Source of the DNA: Acytostelium subglobosum LB1
Lineage: Eukaryota > Evosea > Eumycetozoa > Acytosteliales > Acytosteliaceae
Direction: 5' to 3'
Assembly (NCBI RefSeq): GCF_000787575.1
Contig: NW_012236532.1
Coordinates: 932,612-996,611, forward strand
Length of the DNA: 64,000 nt
The notes below the pieces were generated by a model. That model was not told the origin of the DNA. It did no database searches and saw only the letters and a list, made by a program, of their open reading frames with translations. Shown here in pieces: positions 38,305-45,180 of this stretch (the first letter of the stretch is position 1; each line of letters opens with the position of its first letter). The translations under genes and the position numbers were made by a program.

Positions 38305-41300
38305 ATGGGAAACAATACCAATCGACAATCAACAACAACTACAACTACAACTACTAATACAACTAATGTTGTTGAGATGAATGATCAAACATATGTTGTT
38401 GGTCAAGACAATGATGATGTGGATATGCATTATTATGATAGACAACTATATACTATATCATTGGAAGCAATGAGATTGATTGTTGCCACTGATGTATTGG
38501 TTGTTGGTCTAAAAGGTGGACTTGGAATCGAGATTGTCAAGAATATTGTGTTGGCTGGTGTAAGATCAGTAACACTCTACGACGATGATCCTGTCACTAT
38601 GAGTGACTTATCATCCAATGTATGTATAATCATTAGCATCAACATCAACATCCACATCATCGACTGACTGACCTTTCAATCATAGTTCACTTTGGATCAA
38701 TCACATGTTGGTGTTGCGAGGTCTACTGCTTGCCAAGAGGTAGTGTCTTCGCTCAAGCATAACGTGACATGTTATACGGGCGAACTCACAGAGGATGTTA
38801 TAAAGAGACATCATGTTGTTGTGTTGGCAAACCAGTTACCATCGATCAATGTCAAGGTTAACCAATGGTGTAGAGATCACTCGATCAAGTTCATCGCTGT
38901 AGAGTGTCATGGTGTATTTGGATCATTGTTCAATGACTTTGGCGACCAGTTCCACATCACCGACATACGTGATGAGGTGTTGTCTCCAGCTCTCATCACT
39001 TCATTCAAGCGCTCAGACTCTGCTGGCTCTGACTCCTCCTCCAACAACAACAACAACAACAACAATTCTACCAATGGTTTGTTTGAAGAGGTCGAGATAC
39101 ATTTGGAGGAGTGCACATCATATATGCATGGTCTGTCTGTTGGCGATCAGATTCACCTTTGTATCAAGGGCATTACACAACTTGTTGACCATGGACCATA
39201 TACAATCAAGGAGATCCATCAGCGATATAAACTCAAGATTGATATGCCCTCTGAATTGACACAGATACTTGGAAGCTTCACAGGCGGTCGTGTCATCCCC
39301 CTGCCTCAATCATTGACAGTGGACTTCAAACCATTGTCCATCACATCGCAAGACCTCTATTGTCCTTCGGACGACCCTGCCAAGAGCTACAATGACATTC
39401 AACTGAACCTGGCATTCCAAGCCGTTCACAGGTTCAGTGAGGTACATGGTCACTTCCCCCGAGCCTTCAATATTGTCGATGCAGAAGAGGTGTTGGAGTT
39501 AGCCAAGGTGCTGGCCACCGATATCAACTCGCAACCGAGTGTGGATGAGACATTGGTGCTACAAATATCGTTTACATGGAGTGGAGAGCTTGCTCCAGTC
39601 TCATCAATCATTGGTGGTGTGGCAGCACAAGAGGTCCTGAAGGCCGCCTCACACTTATTCCAACCTATTTATCAATTGACTTACTTTGACTATTCATCCG
39701 TGTTGCCAACAGACCTCTTGAATATGTCCTCGCCACTCGATACCTCAACCAACTCACGATATGATGGTCTTTTGGCTGTGCTTGGTAGAGATATCCAACG
39801 ACTCATCGAGTCACAGCGCCTGTTCTTGGTTGGCGCAGGAGCATCTGGATGCGAGCTGTTGAAGAACCTGGCATTGATGGGCTTTGGCTGTGGCACCAAT
39901 GGACACATTCAATTCGCTGATCACGATGTCGTCGAGCTTCACAACCTCCACACTCAAATACTCTACTCTCGTGAGGACATTGGCAACCTCAAAGCAACAT
40001 GCGCAGCGAGGACGACCAAGGCGATCAATCCCGCGATGAACATCACTGCTCACACAGATCAGGTTGGCGAGATACCTTATAAGTGTGCACCGTGGAACGC
40101 AGAGGCCAACTCCAATTTCAACCAACAGTTCTACACTGACTTGGACGCGGTGCTCATGGCGCCCGACAACCTATCGGCCAGGATGCACATTGATGAGAGG
40201 TGCGTGAAGTTTGGCATCCCCTACATCGACACTGGGTTGCGTGGAAACAAGGGCAGCGTCCAGGTGGTGGTGCCACATCAGACGCAGCCATACTCGGCTA
40301 CGAAAGACCCATTCGAACACAGCTTCCCCAAGGACATGCACCACTTCCCTCGTGGAGTTGAGCACACTACAAACTGGGCACAAGATATTCTTCAGAATCA
40401 ATATGTAGAGTCTCCCAATGATGCCAACGAGTACCTCAATGACCCGTCAAAGATTGATGATAAGTCATTGTCAGCGTTTTCAATGTCATCCCTCTTGGAC
40501 AGGATTAGCGAGATTCTGCTGCTGGAAGTTATCCCAACAAACATCGAGCAATGTATACAGCTTGCCCGAAATATGTTTGAACAAGAGTTTACAATCAAGA
40601 CTCAACGTCTACTACACAGCTTCCCCAAGGACTTGGTGACGGCGACGGGTGCACCATTCTGGGGGCATCCCAACAGAATAGACGCGCCAACACCTCTGTC
40701 ATTCAGCTCGCAAGACCATCAACATCGCCAATTTGTCATTGTGGCGGCCAAGCTGTTTGCCCTCACCTTTAGCATCGAGTGGACATTGGATGCACAGTGC
40801 ACTGAGGAACAGCTCACTCAATGGATGGACTCAGTCACACTCAGGAGACCCAAATCTCTGGGCACCAAGCCCTATACCGATGAGAGAAGATTGAAGCGGG
40901 AGGCCAAGATCAGGGCCAAGCTTAGCGCAAGGTCTGATCAACTCAAGGGACTCAAACTACACATTGTTAAGCCTCAACTTGGAGAGCCTGGCCATCTCAC
41001 ATCAGAGTTTGTTGTACTGGCTTCCCAACTCAAATCAAGAGTGTACAACATCGAACAAGAGAATGCACACAAGATCCGAGGCATTGCCAAAAAGATCATC
41101 CCGACACTAATCACAAGTGCATCCGTAGTAGCCGGTCTAGCATGCCTCGAGTTGTTGAAGCTTATGCAAAAGAAGAAGCTCCAACAATGTCCACATGATT
41201 TCAGGAACAGGTAATCATTCGCGCCACACTCGCGCCACCTTTGCCATGGTCAATCTAACTCACTAACTCATCCATTAATCACAACCAACATGTAGCTTCA

Positions 41301-41698
41301 TCAATCTAGCAACAGCAACATTTATCCATGCTCAACCATTGCCTCCCAAGAAATATAATATGATTGGAAGTGTTGAGGGAGAGTGGACGGAATGGGACCA
41401 TGTGGAGGTATATGGCGATATCACTTTGCGAGAGTTGGTACATCATATAGAGCACCACTACTTATGTACATTAACGATGTTGTGTACTGGTACATGGTTG
41501 TTATACGCCAGGTTCATGAGGAAGGAGTTACATGAAAAACTCTTTGATCAACCAATCAAACAGATCATTGAGGATAAGTCCAAGCAAAAGATTGGTGACA
41601 AAGTCCGCTTCCTAGATCTAGATGTTTGTCTTGACTACCTTGGCACTGACTATGACTGTGAAGACTTCCCCAAGATCAGATACGTCATCAAACAATAA
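38305..41698 (+). CDS. Ubiquitin-activating E1-like protein without catalytic Cys, 1,080 aa
   Basis: Exons 38305-38619, 38686-41210 and 41296-41698. The whole E1 architecture is present: inactive adenylation half (YDRQLYTISLEAM, GLKGGLGIEIVKN), first catalytic half-domain with an Asn-rich insertion, active-type adenylation half (FLVGAGASGCELLKNLALMGFG), second catalytic half-domain (GAPFWGHPNRIDAPTPL) and C-terminal ubiquitin-fold domain (EWTEWDHVEVYGDITL). The usual P-x-CTLKNFP cysteine segment reads SFPKDMHHFP (residues 651-660) with no Cys. The arginine of NLNRQF is Thr528, and the LDNVDAR motif reads APDNLSAR. This makes normal thioester formation and adenylation doubtful. It is probably a pseudo-E1 that binds ubiquitin or E2 without transferring, with a true UBA1 elsewhere. 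The frame is undamaged over 3 kb, so it is under selection rather than decaying. Confidence 0.85.
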
Positions 41699-42012: not shown

Positions 42013-42740
42013 TTATCCATTGATTGGTTGGCCACGTGCTGTGATCGATTGATGAGCCTTGTTGCTTCTGAACTTGAAGATATCGATTCCTCTTGACTTG
42101 CGCTTCATGTTGACCTCGTTGTTGCCAGAGGTCTCTGGCTCGGTGGACTGACGTCTCTTGACGACGGCAACAGTGACACCAGCGGCCAAAGCAAGGGCAG
42201 CAGCACCACCAACAGCAATACCAACGATGGCACCAGTTGAGAGGGCAGCAGCAGCGGCAGCAGTTGGTGCGAAAGCACTGTCAGCACCAGTGAACATCGA
42301 AGCAAACTCCTCATAAGTAAGGTCACTGAATGAGTTGAGGGAGGCTAAGGACATGAATGTGAGTTAGATACATTGAACACACTGAACTATCGAGGCTACG
42401 ACATTGACTACTTACCAGTCTGGACATCAGCGCTTGGGTATGTGACGGTGACGGCTTCGTTGACGGATGAGAGGACTCTGCTGGTGGCGGCTTGGGAGCT
42501 GCCGACGGTCATGAGGACATTGACTTGGTTGATGGCACCGTTGATGGCGGCGACCTTCTCGACGTTTGCCTGCCAGTTGGCGAAAGCAGCTTGGAATTCA
42601 CCATCAGTGTAATACTTTCCGAAAGCATCGGCCCAGCTGTGGAAAGCCTGAATCTCATCATCAGTTGGGGTTGAGTCAGCATTTGCGAAAGCGACCAACA
42701 ACACAAAGAAACAAACAACAACACTTGTTGATATTCTCAT
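42013..42740 (-). CDS. Stand-alone I29 protease-propeptide protein with membrane anchor, 218 aa
   Basis: Exons 42416-42740 and 42013-42344 (GTAAGT...CCTTAG). Residues 1-21 are a signal peptide. Residues 30-69 match the ERFNIN half of the cathepsin propeptide inhibitor domain I29 (IQAFHSWADAFGKYYTDGEF, then NWQANVEKVAAING). After a 40-residue insertion, residues 112-126 give the second signature NSFSDLTYEEFASMF (N-x-F-x-D-x-T-x-E-E-F). No protease domain follows. Instead an Ala-rich linker leads to a transmembrane helix (about 146-170, IVGIAVGGAAALALAAGVTV) and a basic 48-residue tail (KRRQS...KRKSR). Normally I29 is the N-terminal propeptide of papain-type enzymes, acting as intramolecular chaperone and inhibitor. 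Its divergent neighbour at 43683 is a papain-type enzyme lacking I29, so a trans-acting partnership is an attractive inference. Confidence 0.82.
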
Positions 42741-43682
42741 TCTTTATATATTATGTATTTGTAATTATATGTATATATATATATGTGATATTATATGTTT
42801 GATTAATTGATTGAATGAATGAATTAAGTAAACTTAATAATGTACCAGTGAATTGGCGTTGATGTTGACGTTGTTGTTGATGATGATATGAATGTTGAAT
42901 AAGAATGATTCAATGATTCCATTCCCAATCAATTGGTGGAGGACGAACTTAACCGTTTAGATTGCCCATCTTGTTGGAGCCATTTAATGAGGTGCACCTA
43001 CACGTGTGCAAACAACTCAAACAAGTCAACCTTAACCAACCTATTAAATCTACGTCTTCCTACCAATGGAATACAGTGTCGAGTGGCACGATTACCCATC
43101 AATCTAACGCCAAGCCATAAATTTGCATCAAGGGGCAGCCATTTTTTGATAAATTCGATCAATTTTTAGACTTTATGTGAAGGTCCGCCTTGTTTGTGGG
43201 GACGTCCAATCCCAAACGTCACAGTTGATCAGTGCAAATATTTGTAGGCGTGGGTCGATTGATTGATTGTTGGATCACAATCGCATACCTGAGTCCTCAC
43301 AGGACCCCTTTTGGTCTATGTGTCCAACGACTAAATGTGATGTTTGCTACATTTAACATTGGTGGCTTGATCCAACAAATCACAACCCACTGAGGCCACG
43401 ATACTTTATATTGAATAACCCAAAAAATAAGCCCAACTTGAATGATTCTTCAATTCAAGCTCTCTCCCAATCACATACTTCTTTTGTTGACCCCTCCCCT
43501 TCGTCGTCACTTCCAGAGTCCTTGGTCTACAATCAATCAAAATTTTAAACAAGGTCCACCTTACTTAAATCAGACCTCATCTTTTCAATCATTACTAAAC
43601 TACTAACTTATAAAGTATACTTTATATATATATAATTATTTGTAATATTATTATTTATTATTTATTATTTATTTAAAAAACA
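42741..43682. other. Bidirectional promoter region of propeptide/protease pair
   Basis: About 940 bases separate the two divergent starts. It has AATGAATGAATT and TTGATGTTGATG repeats near the left gene and ATATATATAAT with TTATTTATTATTTATTT near the right gene. The middle holds unique sequence without a convincing frame. A shared control region is plausible but no operator is identifiable. Confidence 0.45.
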
Positions 43683-45180
43683 ATGAAGATTATAATTTTA
43701 TTGTTCACACTCACATGTTTGATGAGTCTGGCTGCTGCTCAGTTGGACCAAGCTTCAATCACCACTATTCTTAACATTCATAATCAGTGGAGAGCTGACC
43801 CAACTAGTGTTGGCGCATTGGCACCCGCCACAACCATCCCAGCTTTGAAATGGAACGCCACCATGGCCAGAGATATCCAGACTCACGTTTCCAAGTGCTC
43901 CAACACATGGAGTCCAGCCGCCCTCAAGTCCCAGGTGTCCGAGTGGAGCTTCGGAATTGCCCCCAACTTTGACGCCGCCCAGATCCTCAACTGGATCGCC
44001 GAGGGAGCTCCCGCCTTTGACTTCACCTTGAAGGCTTGTCCATCTGGAAACTACAGCTGCAGCATGTGGGCTCAGGCCGTGTGGGCCACCTCCACCCAGA
44101 TTGGCTGTGGCATGGCTCAATGCAGTGGCTACTACTACTTGTACTGTGACTACAAGACACCAGGTGGATACAGAAACAAGAACCCATACACTCCAAAGAA
44201 CCTCCCAACCCCAACCCCAACCTCCACCCCAGCTACAACTGGAAGCACTGTGTCCACGACCTCCTCCACTACCTCGACCACCAAGCCCGCCACCACCTCC
44301 TCGACTACCTCCACAACTTCGACCACCAAGCCAGCCACCACCTCCTCGACAACTACCTCCACTACCTCGACCACCAGACCAGCCACCACCTCTTCGACCA
44401 CCACTACCACCACCCCAGCTACTACCACTTCCGCTGGCGCCACCTCTGGCACTCCAACTCCAACACCAAACGCTGGTGGCTCGATCGATTGGAGATCATT
44501 CTCCACCCCAGTAAGAAACCAGGGTCAATGCGGTGACTGCTATTTGTTCGCCGCCGTCGCTAACATTGAGGCAAGAGCTGTCATCTACAAGGGTGCCAAC
44601 AAGGACACCTTCAACTTGGCCGAGCAGGACGCCCTTAACTGCATCAGCAACGGATGCAACGGAGGCTGGCCAACATCAGTCTACACTACCTTTGCCAAGA
44701 ATGGTATCGCCTACGAGTCCACCTACCCATACACCGAGACCCAGAGCACCTGCACCAATGACCTCTCTGTCGCCCGTTGGAAGTGGGCTGGCTACAGCGA
44801 GAACACTGGCACCACCAAGGCTGCTTTCATCAACGCCCTCAAGACTGGTCCATTCGCCGCTGCCCTCTACGTCGACGATGCCTTCCAGAACTACAAGTCT
44901 GGTGTCTTCTCATGTCCACAGGCTTACACCAGCATCAACCACGCCATCACCGTCACTGGTTACGACGCCGCTGGTGACTACTGGATCATTAAGAGTATGT
45001 TTAATTTTATATCTATTTCAATCATATTGATCACTCAATCACTAACATCGATCAATTAATCAATCAATTAATATAGACTCGTGGGACACATGGTGGGGAG
45101 AGAGTGGATACATTCGTTTGACTGCTTCCAACGACAACTGCAACATGTTGAAGTACGCCGGAAGCTACGTTAACTACTAA
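43683..45180 (+). CDS. CAP/SCP domain fused to papain-like (C1A) cysteine protease, 471 aa
   Basis: Exons 43683-44994 and 45077-45180. Signal peptide 1-19 (MKIIILLFTLTCLMSLAAA). Residues about 22-165 are a CAP/SCP domain (HNQWRADPTSVGALAP, LKWNATMARDIQTHVSKC, WAQAVWATSTQIGCG, YLYCDYKTPGGYRNKNPY). A Thr/Ser linker of repeated TTKPATTSSTTS units spans about 172-260. Residues 265-471 are a complete C1A peptidase: oxyanion Gln280 and nucleophile Cys286 in NQGQCGDCYLF, His420 in INHAITVTGY, Asn438 in NSWDTWWGESGYIRL. The residue after the nucleophile is Tyr where Trp is usual. No I29 propeptide is present, although C1A enzymes normally need one to fold and stay latent; the CAP domain occupies its place. 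Probably secreted or lysosomal. The divergent neighbour encodes a free I29 domain. Confidence 0.9.

Follow-up and report, generated by a model that had tools for sequence, protein, structure and literature searches.

Papain-family (C1A) zymogens are the textbook example of a protease controlled by an intramolecular segment that is inhibitor and chaperone at once, and the free I29 inhibitors CTLA-2, crammer and BCPI are soluble proteins. The p41 form of invariant chain is membrane-anchored, carries a thyroglobulin-type inhibitory domain and is not known to come from a paired gene. Here we describe an arrangement from the slime mould Acytostelium subglobosum LB1, located in a stretch of 64,000 nucleotides (hereafter the window; assembly GCF_000787575.1, contig NW_012236532.1, positions 932,612 to 996,611 of the forward strand). 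A minus-strand gene (42740-42013) encodes an I29 propeptide domain followed by a transmembrane (TM) helix, termed I29-TM, and a divergent plus-strand gene (43683-45180) encodes a CAP domain fused to a C1A protease that lacks a propeptide, termed CAP-C1A. The pair recurs in the genome, and we propose that it likely represents a zymogen split over two proteins.

Among described systems, the MEROPS I29 inhibitors likewise have I29 apart from a protease, and CTLA-2alpha has a signal sequence; the passages of PMC4089206 concerned with them report that such separately encoded I29 proteins (CTLA-2, crammer and BCPI) inhibit cathepsin L-like enzymes in trans, and that CTLA-2alpha, in addition, keeps cathepsin L stable when the pH is neutral. 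Isolated propeptides, too, are tight inhibitors in trans and not strictly cognate, as stated in the relevant part of PMC3355106. The I29-TM protein of the window differs from these inhibitors in its TM helix, its conserved tail and its divergent neighbour gene for a propeptide-less protease. On the protease side, CAP:C1A proteins of Planoprotostelium fungivorum, Dictyostelium purpureum and Polysphondylium pallidum have the same CAP-before-C1A order; the CAP:C1A section of PMC10084794 mentions no partner gene, and the term I29 occurs zero times in its main text. Cryptopain-1 of Cryptosporidium also combines a TM helix with a cathepsin propeptide inhibitor domain, i.e. a membrane-anchored propeptide, but here, according to the description in PMC10454693, propeptide, TM helix and protease form one chain, and the TM helix precedes the propeptide. 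A possible working analogue is invariant chain, which PMC4089206 mentions in connection with cathepsin L: there, too, a cathepsin would be bound and controlled by a protein of the membrane. A free membrane-anchored I29 protein paired with a propeptide-less protease did not turn up in searches of the open full-text literature, a coverage outside which most subscription papers fall. Each component taken alone, the free I29 inhibitor and the CAP:C1A protein of slime moulds, has precedents.

A propeptide and a protease encoded apart

The I29-TM gene comprises two exons and encodes 218 residues. Exon 1 (42416..42740, minus strand) contributes the signal peptide and the ERFNIN-like first half of the I29 domain, and exon 2 (42013..42344, minus strand) the second half, the TM helix, the cytoplasmic tail and the stop codon, as determined from the splice model, Pfam and hydropathy. 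Pfam I29 (PF08246) matches residues 33-122 over the entire profile (positions 1-59 of 59) with a score of 36.3 bits (cut-off 24.4; E 7e-9). Hydropathy places a signal segment at residues 3-21 and a single TM segment at residues 147-165 (42175..42231, minus strand), followed by K/R, which suggests a type I topology. The preliminary description of this DNA, made from the sequence alone, had listed a signal peptide, I29, a TM helix and a basic tail without a protease, and all of these are confirmed. Two features were absent from it: the 71-bp GT-AG intron (42345..42415, minus strand, phase 1) lies inside the I29 domain and separates the ERFNIN half from the FSDLTYEEF half, and about 30 additional residues are found between the halves (90 residues against a 59-position profile).

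A profile of seven I29-TM proteins from this genome gave 12 PDB matches at E<=0.01, all of them proteases with a propeptide or propeptide chains. They include the zymogen of FBSB (6u7d), where the two I29 halves were matched in order, each at E<0.01; pro-papain, where the second half by itself gives a weak match (E 0.09); procaricain; and 3f75_P, a propeptide present as a chain of its own and matched in its first half only. Invariant positions of the seven aligned proteins include F33, W36, Y44, N67, F114, S115, D116, F122 and G128, the last of which terminates the second I29 half, NSFSDLTYEEFASMFTG (42286..42336, minus strand). In our own alignment, Gly128 appears to correspond to Gly77 of the cathepsin L propeptide, at the active-site crossing. 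A glycine at this place is present in 9/9 I29-TM proteins, the degenerate ones described below included, as compared to 5/12 I29 domains in cis to a protease, and is thus not universal in the I29 family. The passages of PMC4089206 on this residue report that G73A costs crammer its potency, whereas the equivalent change in CTLA-2alpha does not.

The CAP-C1A gene encodes 471 residues, also in two exons. Exon 1 (43683..44994, plus strand) covers the signal peptide, the CAP domain, the linker and the C1A domain to residue 437, and exon 2 (45077..45180) the NSW motif, the C terminus and the stop codon; the 82-bp intron between them (44995..45076, phase 1) falls within the Asn438 codon. The CAP domain (PF00188, E 8e-14) occupies residues 30-157 (43770..44153), where a propeptide usually sits, and is followed by a linker rich in Thr, Pro and Ser (44199..44477) and by the intron-interrupted C1A domain (PF00112, E 4e-49; residues 267-464, 44481..45156). 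The catalytic Cys286, His420 and Asn438 are present and the whole order of domains, without I29, is as first described. In the PDB the C1A domain is closest to ananain and related papain-type enzymes, and FBSB is among its homologues there. No Pfam I29 match at E<=1 was detected in the protein. An extra exon that restores a cis propeptide, as the preliminary description had considered, is unlikely, because the genes diverge from a shared intergenic region of 942 bp (42741..43682) and each model runs from signal peptide to stop. Beyond the I29-TM stop codon, at a distance of about 0.3 kb, ends a neighbouring gene (38305-41698) which resembles a ubiquitin-activating (E1-like) enzyme, as judged by eye from its open reading frames (ORFs).

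Recurrence, age and origin of the pair

Within the 30.7-Mb genome the window lies on contig C56, and other loci are named here by their contig labels. The Pfam Dictyostelium repeat Dicty_CTDC has at least 150 matches in this genome (150 of 298 candidates scored) and none in 14 control genomes, in keeping with a dictyostelid. Genes were modelled from genomic sequence alone, with GT-AG introns searched under guidance by hand; the weakest models are the I29-TM models of C43a (second acceptor AAG) and C45 (56 alternatives, with the GTAAGT donor chosen), followed by the CAP-C1A models of C43b (152 alternatives) and C54 (spliced by eye). A Pfam I29 search of the genome gave 17 matches, 12 strong and five weaker. 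All 12 strong matches adjoin a C1A match on the same strand, i.e. in cis; the five weaker ones lack a cis C1A and are I29-TM genes, the window's included, of which four are head-to-head with a CAP-C1A gene. A genome search with the window protein added C26 and C54, and reading upstream of CAP-C1A genes added C45 and C52, which brings the I29-TM genes found to nine (window, C33, C43a, C43b, C54, C26, C45, C52 and C55). By our own grouping, the 37 Pfam C1A matches represent 28 loci: 12 with cis I29, nine CAP-C1A and seven others. Eight of the nine members of either family form head-to-head pairs, with 291-1186 bp between the chosen start codons.

The architecture is consistent across copies. CAP exceeds the Pfam cut-off in 9/9 CAP-C1A proteins, none of which has a cis I29 match (Pfam, E<=1), and a hidden cis propeptide was rejected on this ground. 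I29 exceeds its cut-off in 7/9 I29-TM proteins, C45 and C52 falling below, and hydropathy detects at least one TM segment after I29 in all nine, together with a signal segment in eight I29-TM and all nine CAP-C1A proteins. The I29 intron is modelled in the same place and phase in C33, C55, C43b, C54, C43a and C45, and is absent in C26 and C52. The tail motif of the window, IDIFKFR...HQSITAR (42034..42087, minus strand), is clear by eye as IDxF...SITAR in six of the nine proteins, has degenerated in C43a and gives way to a different common block in C45 and C52; a strict pattern caught only four. A 33-residue tail stretch is 79% identical between the window and C33. When the genome was searched with the window tail, only the window, C33 and C55 were returned; other tails of the family were missed, so the motif may occur elsewhere.

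Several candidates were discarded. From the 17 matches to the window protein, C54:809120, two C35 loci and C23 were dropped as other proteins with resemblance in the TM segment only, and C26:220086 since an adjoining frame of equal length (699 residues) carries a Dicty_CTDC repeat; C43:396855 was dropped as an I29-TM candidate on account of its cis I29. Six pattern matches in viral contigs included no relative. Additional CAP matches without a neighbouring C1A match lie at C42:683889-686353 (two close together), at 318k, 335k and 424k on C51, and on C53, C41 and C34.

The catalytic Cys is kept in seven of the nine CAP-C1A proteins, and in C45 (C45:379157-380443) and C52 (C52:274344-275690) Ser is aligned there. 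C52 is the clearer case, as the residue immediately preceding the aligned Ser of C45 is a Cys. Both remain head-to-head with a degenerate I29-TM gene, whose product retains the FSD-like segment, the Gly and the TM helix although I29 is below Pfam detection. These are apparent pseudoprotease pairs, in which the proteins have either taken on another job or maintain an interaction that has outlived catalysis. Outside the CAP group, C52:665027-665990 encodes a C1A protein with cis I29 and the active site CAASYAYA, likely another pseudoprotease.

Identity between copies is 18-54% for I29-TM and 22-58% for CAP-C1A, and the copies differ in introns, gap lengths and sequence. The flanking ORFs gave no inter-locus match among 373 ORF segments from 10 loci (flanks of about 0.8-3.3 kb per side). 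Because of this low identity and the unrelated flanks, the two-gene unit is, judging from the sequences, old. The differences within the copies, and flanks that share nothing over these distances, also rule out a recent segmental duplication or an assembly artefact. Full-length trees of both families agree in grouping the window with C33 near C55 (I29-TM) and C50 (CAP-C1A), C43b with C26, and C45 with C52; C43a and C54 are placed discordantly or weakly between the trees. In Mantel comparisons, distances of the lumenal I29 part correlate with those of C1A at r 0.91 over the eight linked pairs (2/40320 permutations, identity included), at 0.82 over the six pairs with an active-type Cys (4/720) and at 0.92 over nine with C55 and C50 taken as a pair (0/50000). 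The corresponding values are 0.86-0.87 for the lumenal I29 part against CAP and 0.86-0.88 for TM helix plus tail against C1A. I29-TM and CAP-C1A are thus co-inherited. For three paralogue pairs per partner, NG86 estimates of non-synonymous (dN) and synonymous (dS) divergence are 0.38-0.60 and 1.0-1.6, the latter near saturation, with dN/dS of 0.30-0.40; therefore, both partners look to be under purifying selection.

In a C1A tree of 24 of the 28 loci (without C55:167k, C52:285k, C52:379k and C37, with several partial frames and in-frame stops written as X), the CAP-C1A proteins form one clade (0.987) beside the cis-I29 enzyme C55:1798887 (0.741), among L-like enzymes with cis I29. Because of this grouping, the CAP-C1A ancestor probably had a cis propeptide. 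The preliminary description had CAP replacing the propeptide in its position, and the grouping is what loss or relocation of a cis propeptide, with CAP moving into its place, would lead one to expect. The neighbouring enzyme in the tree (C55:1798884-1800404) has, besides its cis I29, a long N-terminal extension in a frame of 507 residues. The I29 tree (21 domains, with the insert cut out) has low support and groupings partly unlike those of the full-length tree, and separates cis from trans domains at 0.777 only. I29-TM may thus be either the split-off cis propeptide or another I29 that was recruited, the I29 alignment being short.

A proposed propeptide acting in trans and the alternatives

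Based on the architecture of the two proteins, their catalytic and inhibitory motifs, the repeated pairing and the co-inheritance, we propose that the pair is a split zymogen, in which the membrane-anchored I29 domain folds, silences and sorts its CAP-C1A partner in trans, a mechanism we regard as likely, if with some reserve. Also in its favour are the complementary domain content (no cis I29 in CAP-C1A, and every strong I29 match in cis to a C1A), the dN/dS values of both partners, and the inhibition in trans reported for isolated propeptides and for separately encoded I29 proteins. The plus-strand gene would yield a CAP-papain protease that is secreted and has no propeptide of its own, and the minus-strand gene would supply the propeptide on a type I membrane protein, both made together from one divergent locus. 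In the secretory pathway, the lumenal I29 domain would bind and fold onto the C1A domain, with the FSDLTYEEF...TG stretch running across the active site in the manner of an ordinary zymogen. Bound I29 would then assist folding, maintain latency through inhibition and hold the enzyme at the membrane, while the conserved tail would send enzyme and I29 together to a compartment or to the surface of the cell. Acid or cleavage would release the active enzyme. The original suggestion of a propeptide separated by gene fission and acting in trans is supported in part: that the genes belong together stands firmly, and fission as the origin, binding, inhibition, tethering and release are candidate features.

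Several observations weigh against a split zymogen. ERFNIN is a motif of I29 propeptides; in the window the aligned positions read E-A-W-N-V-N, and the ERFNIN Arg is present in only three of the nine I29-TM proteins (C54, C26 and C43a). At least about 30 residues are inserted between the I29 halves in seven of the nine (not in C45 and C52), and the I29-TM protein of C43a has no signal segment above the hydropathy threshold. The CAP-C1A gene of C50 (1012k) and the I29-TM gene of C55 (1557k) are unpaired, the sole such members of each family found; no partner, and no match in the I29, C1A or window-protein searches, lies in the approximately 3 kb upstream of either. Both are closest to the copies of the window and C33, so they may derive from a single pair that a rearrangement separated. 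In favour of the pairing, none of the remaining 19 C1A loci has an I29-TM neighbour among the genome-search matches (queries: Pfam I29, the window protein and the C45 I29-TM protein), although most of them were not read upstream as for C45 and C52, and degenerate neighbours are possible there. The search with the C45 protein gave no further relative near other C1A loci; it also returned a match at C35:367203 (E 0.05). At least in C45 and C52, the function is not the control of proteolysis. Tree congruence follows from duplication as a unit and is no proof of contact, and the correlation of TM helix plus tail with C1A is only 0.63 in the six active-type pairs (2/720). Propeptide specificity is loose in the literature (PMC3355106, in its part on non-cognate inhibition), and I29-TM could therefore act on other cathepsins. 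Finally, a comparison of 6- to 8-mers in the eight intergenic regions with 40 shuffles gave no clear shared promoter element: several words occur in six to eight regions against about 1-4 in shuffles, GATTGGA being the most marked 7-mer besides simple repeats (6 against 0.93), but none was counted given the number of words tested.

Alternatively, I29 may serve for recognition, either in a receptor that carries mature CAP-C1A as its cargo or in a sensor of this enzyme that signals through its tail, with inhibition being secondary. Conservation of the tail is among the highest in the protein (the stretch shared with C33 and the motif in six of nine proteins), TM-plus-tail distances track those of C1A over the eight pairs (r 0.86), and C45 and C52 remain paired and have their own tail block, all of which this explanation accommodates. 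However, a mere docking module would not need the active-site-crossing segment, present with its Gly in 9/9 proteins, and the tail correlation weakens in the active-type pairs as given above; we regard a receptor or sensor as unlikely, though worth serious consideration.

We give little credence to another possibility, namely that the pairs are cognate sets of a secreted protease and an anchored antidote. The enzymes would then attack neighbours, prey or matrix, the matching I29 would shield the cell's own surface, duplicates would have diverged into separate specificities and the tail would report occupancy. The likeness to toxin-immunity or head-to-head recognition pairs is a formal one; it calls to mind the tgrB1/tgrC1 recognition genes of D. 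discoideum, which are reportedly arranged head-to-head.

It is similarly doubtful that the arrangement is a relic, with I29-TM as a general surface inhibitor of other cathepsins, CAP-C1A chaperoned by CAP or the linker, and the two acting independently. A single ancestral pairing followed by duplications would account for all pairs without any contact, C50 and C55 are indeed unpaired, and isolated propeptides inhibit non-cognate enzymes (PMC3355106, same part). Against this, some copies have diverged to about 20-25% identity and the pairing has survived nonetheless, at eight loci whose flanking ORFs have nothing in common over the distances covered. Chance adjacency of an orphan I29 and a C1A gene, left open by the preliminary description, is so improbable that it was rejected: eight head-to-head pairs are found, whereas random placement of nine plus nine genes over 30.7 Mb predicts about 0.006 neighbours lying start to start within 1.2 kb (hand arithmetic, the pairs not being independent).

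If a split zymogen is indeed what these genes encode, it would show how the off-switch of a papain-type protease, once moved to a separate membrane protein and kept with its partner through many duplications, can become a regulator or receptor. The eight natural pairs would offer a system for studying cognate propeptide specificity. Moreover, the pairing represents a candidate mode of control for the slime-mould CAP:C1A proteases, which the section on them in PMC10084794 notes only for their unusual domain order.

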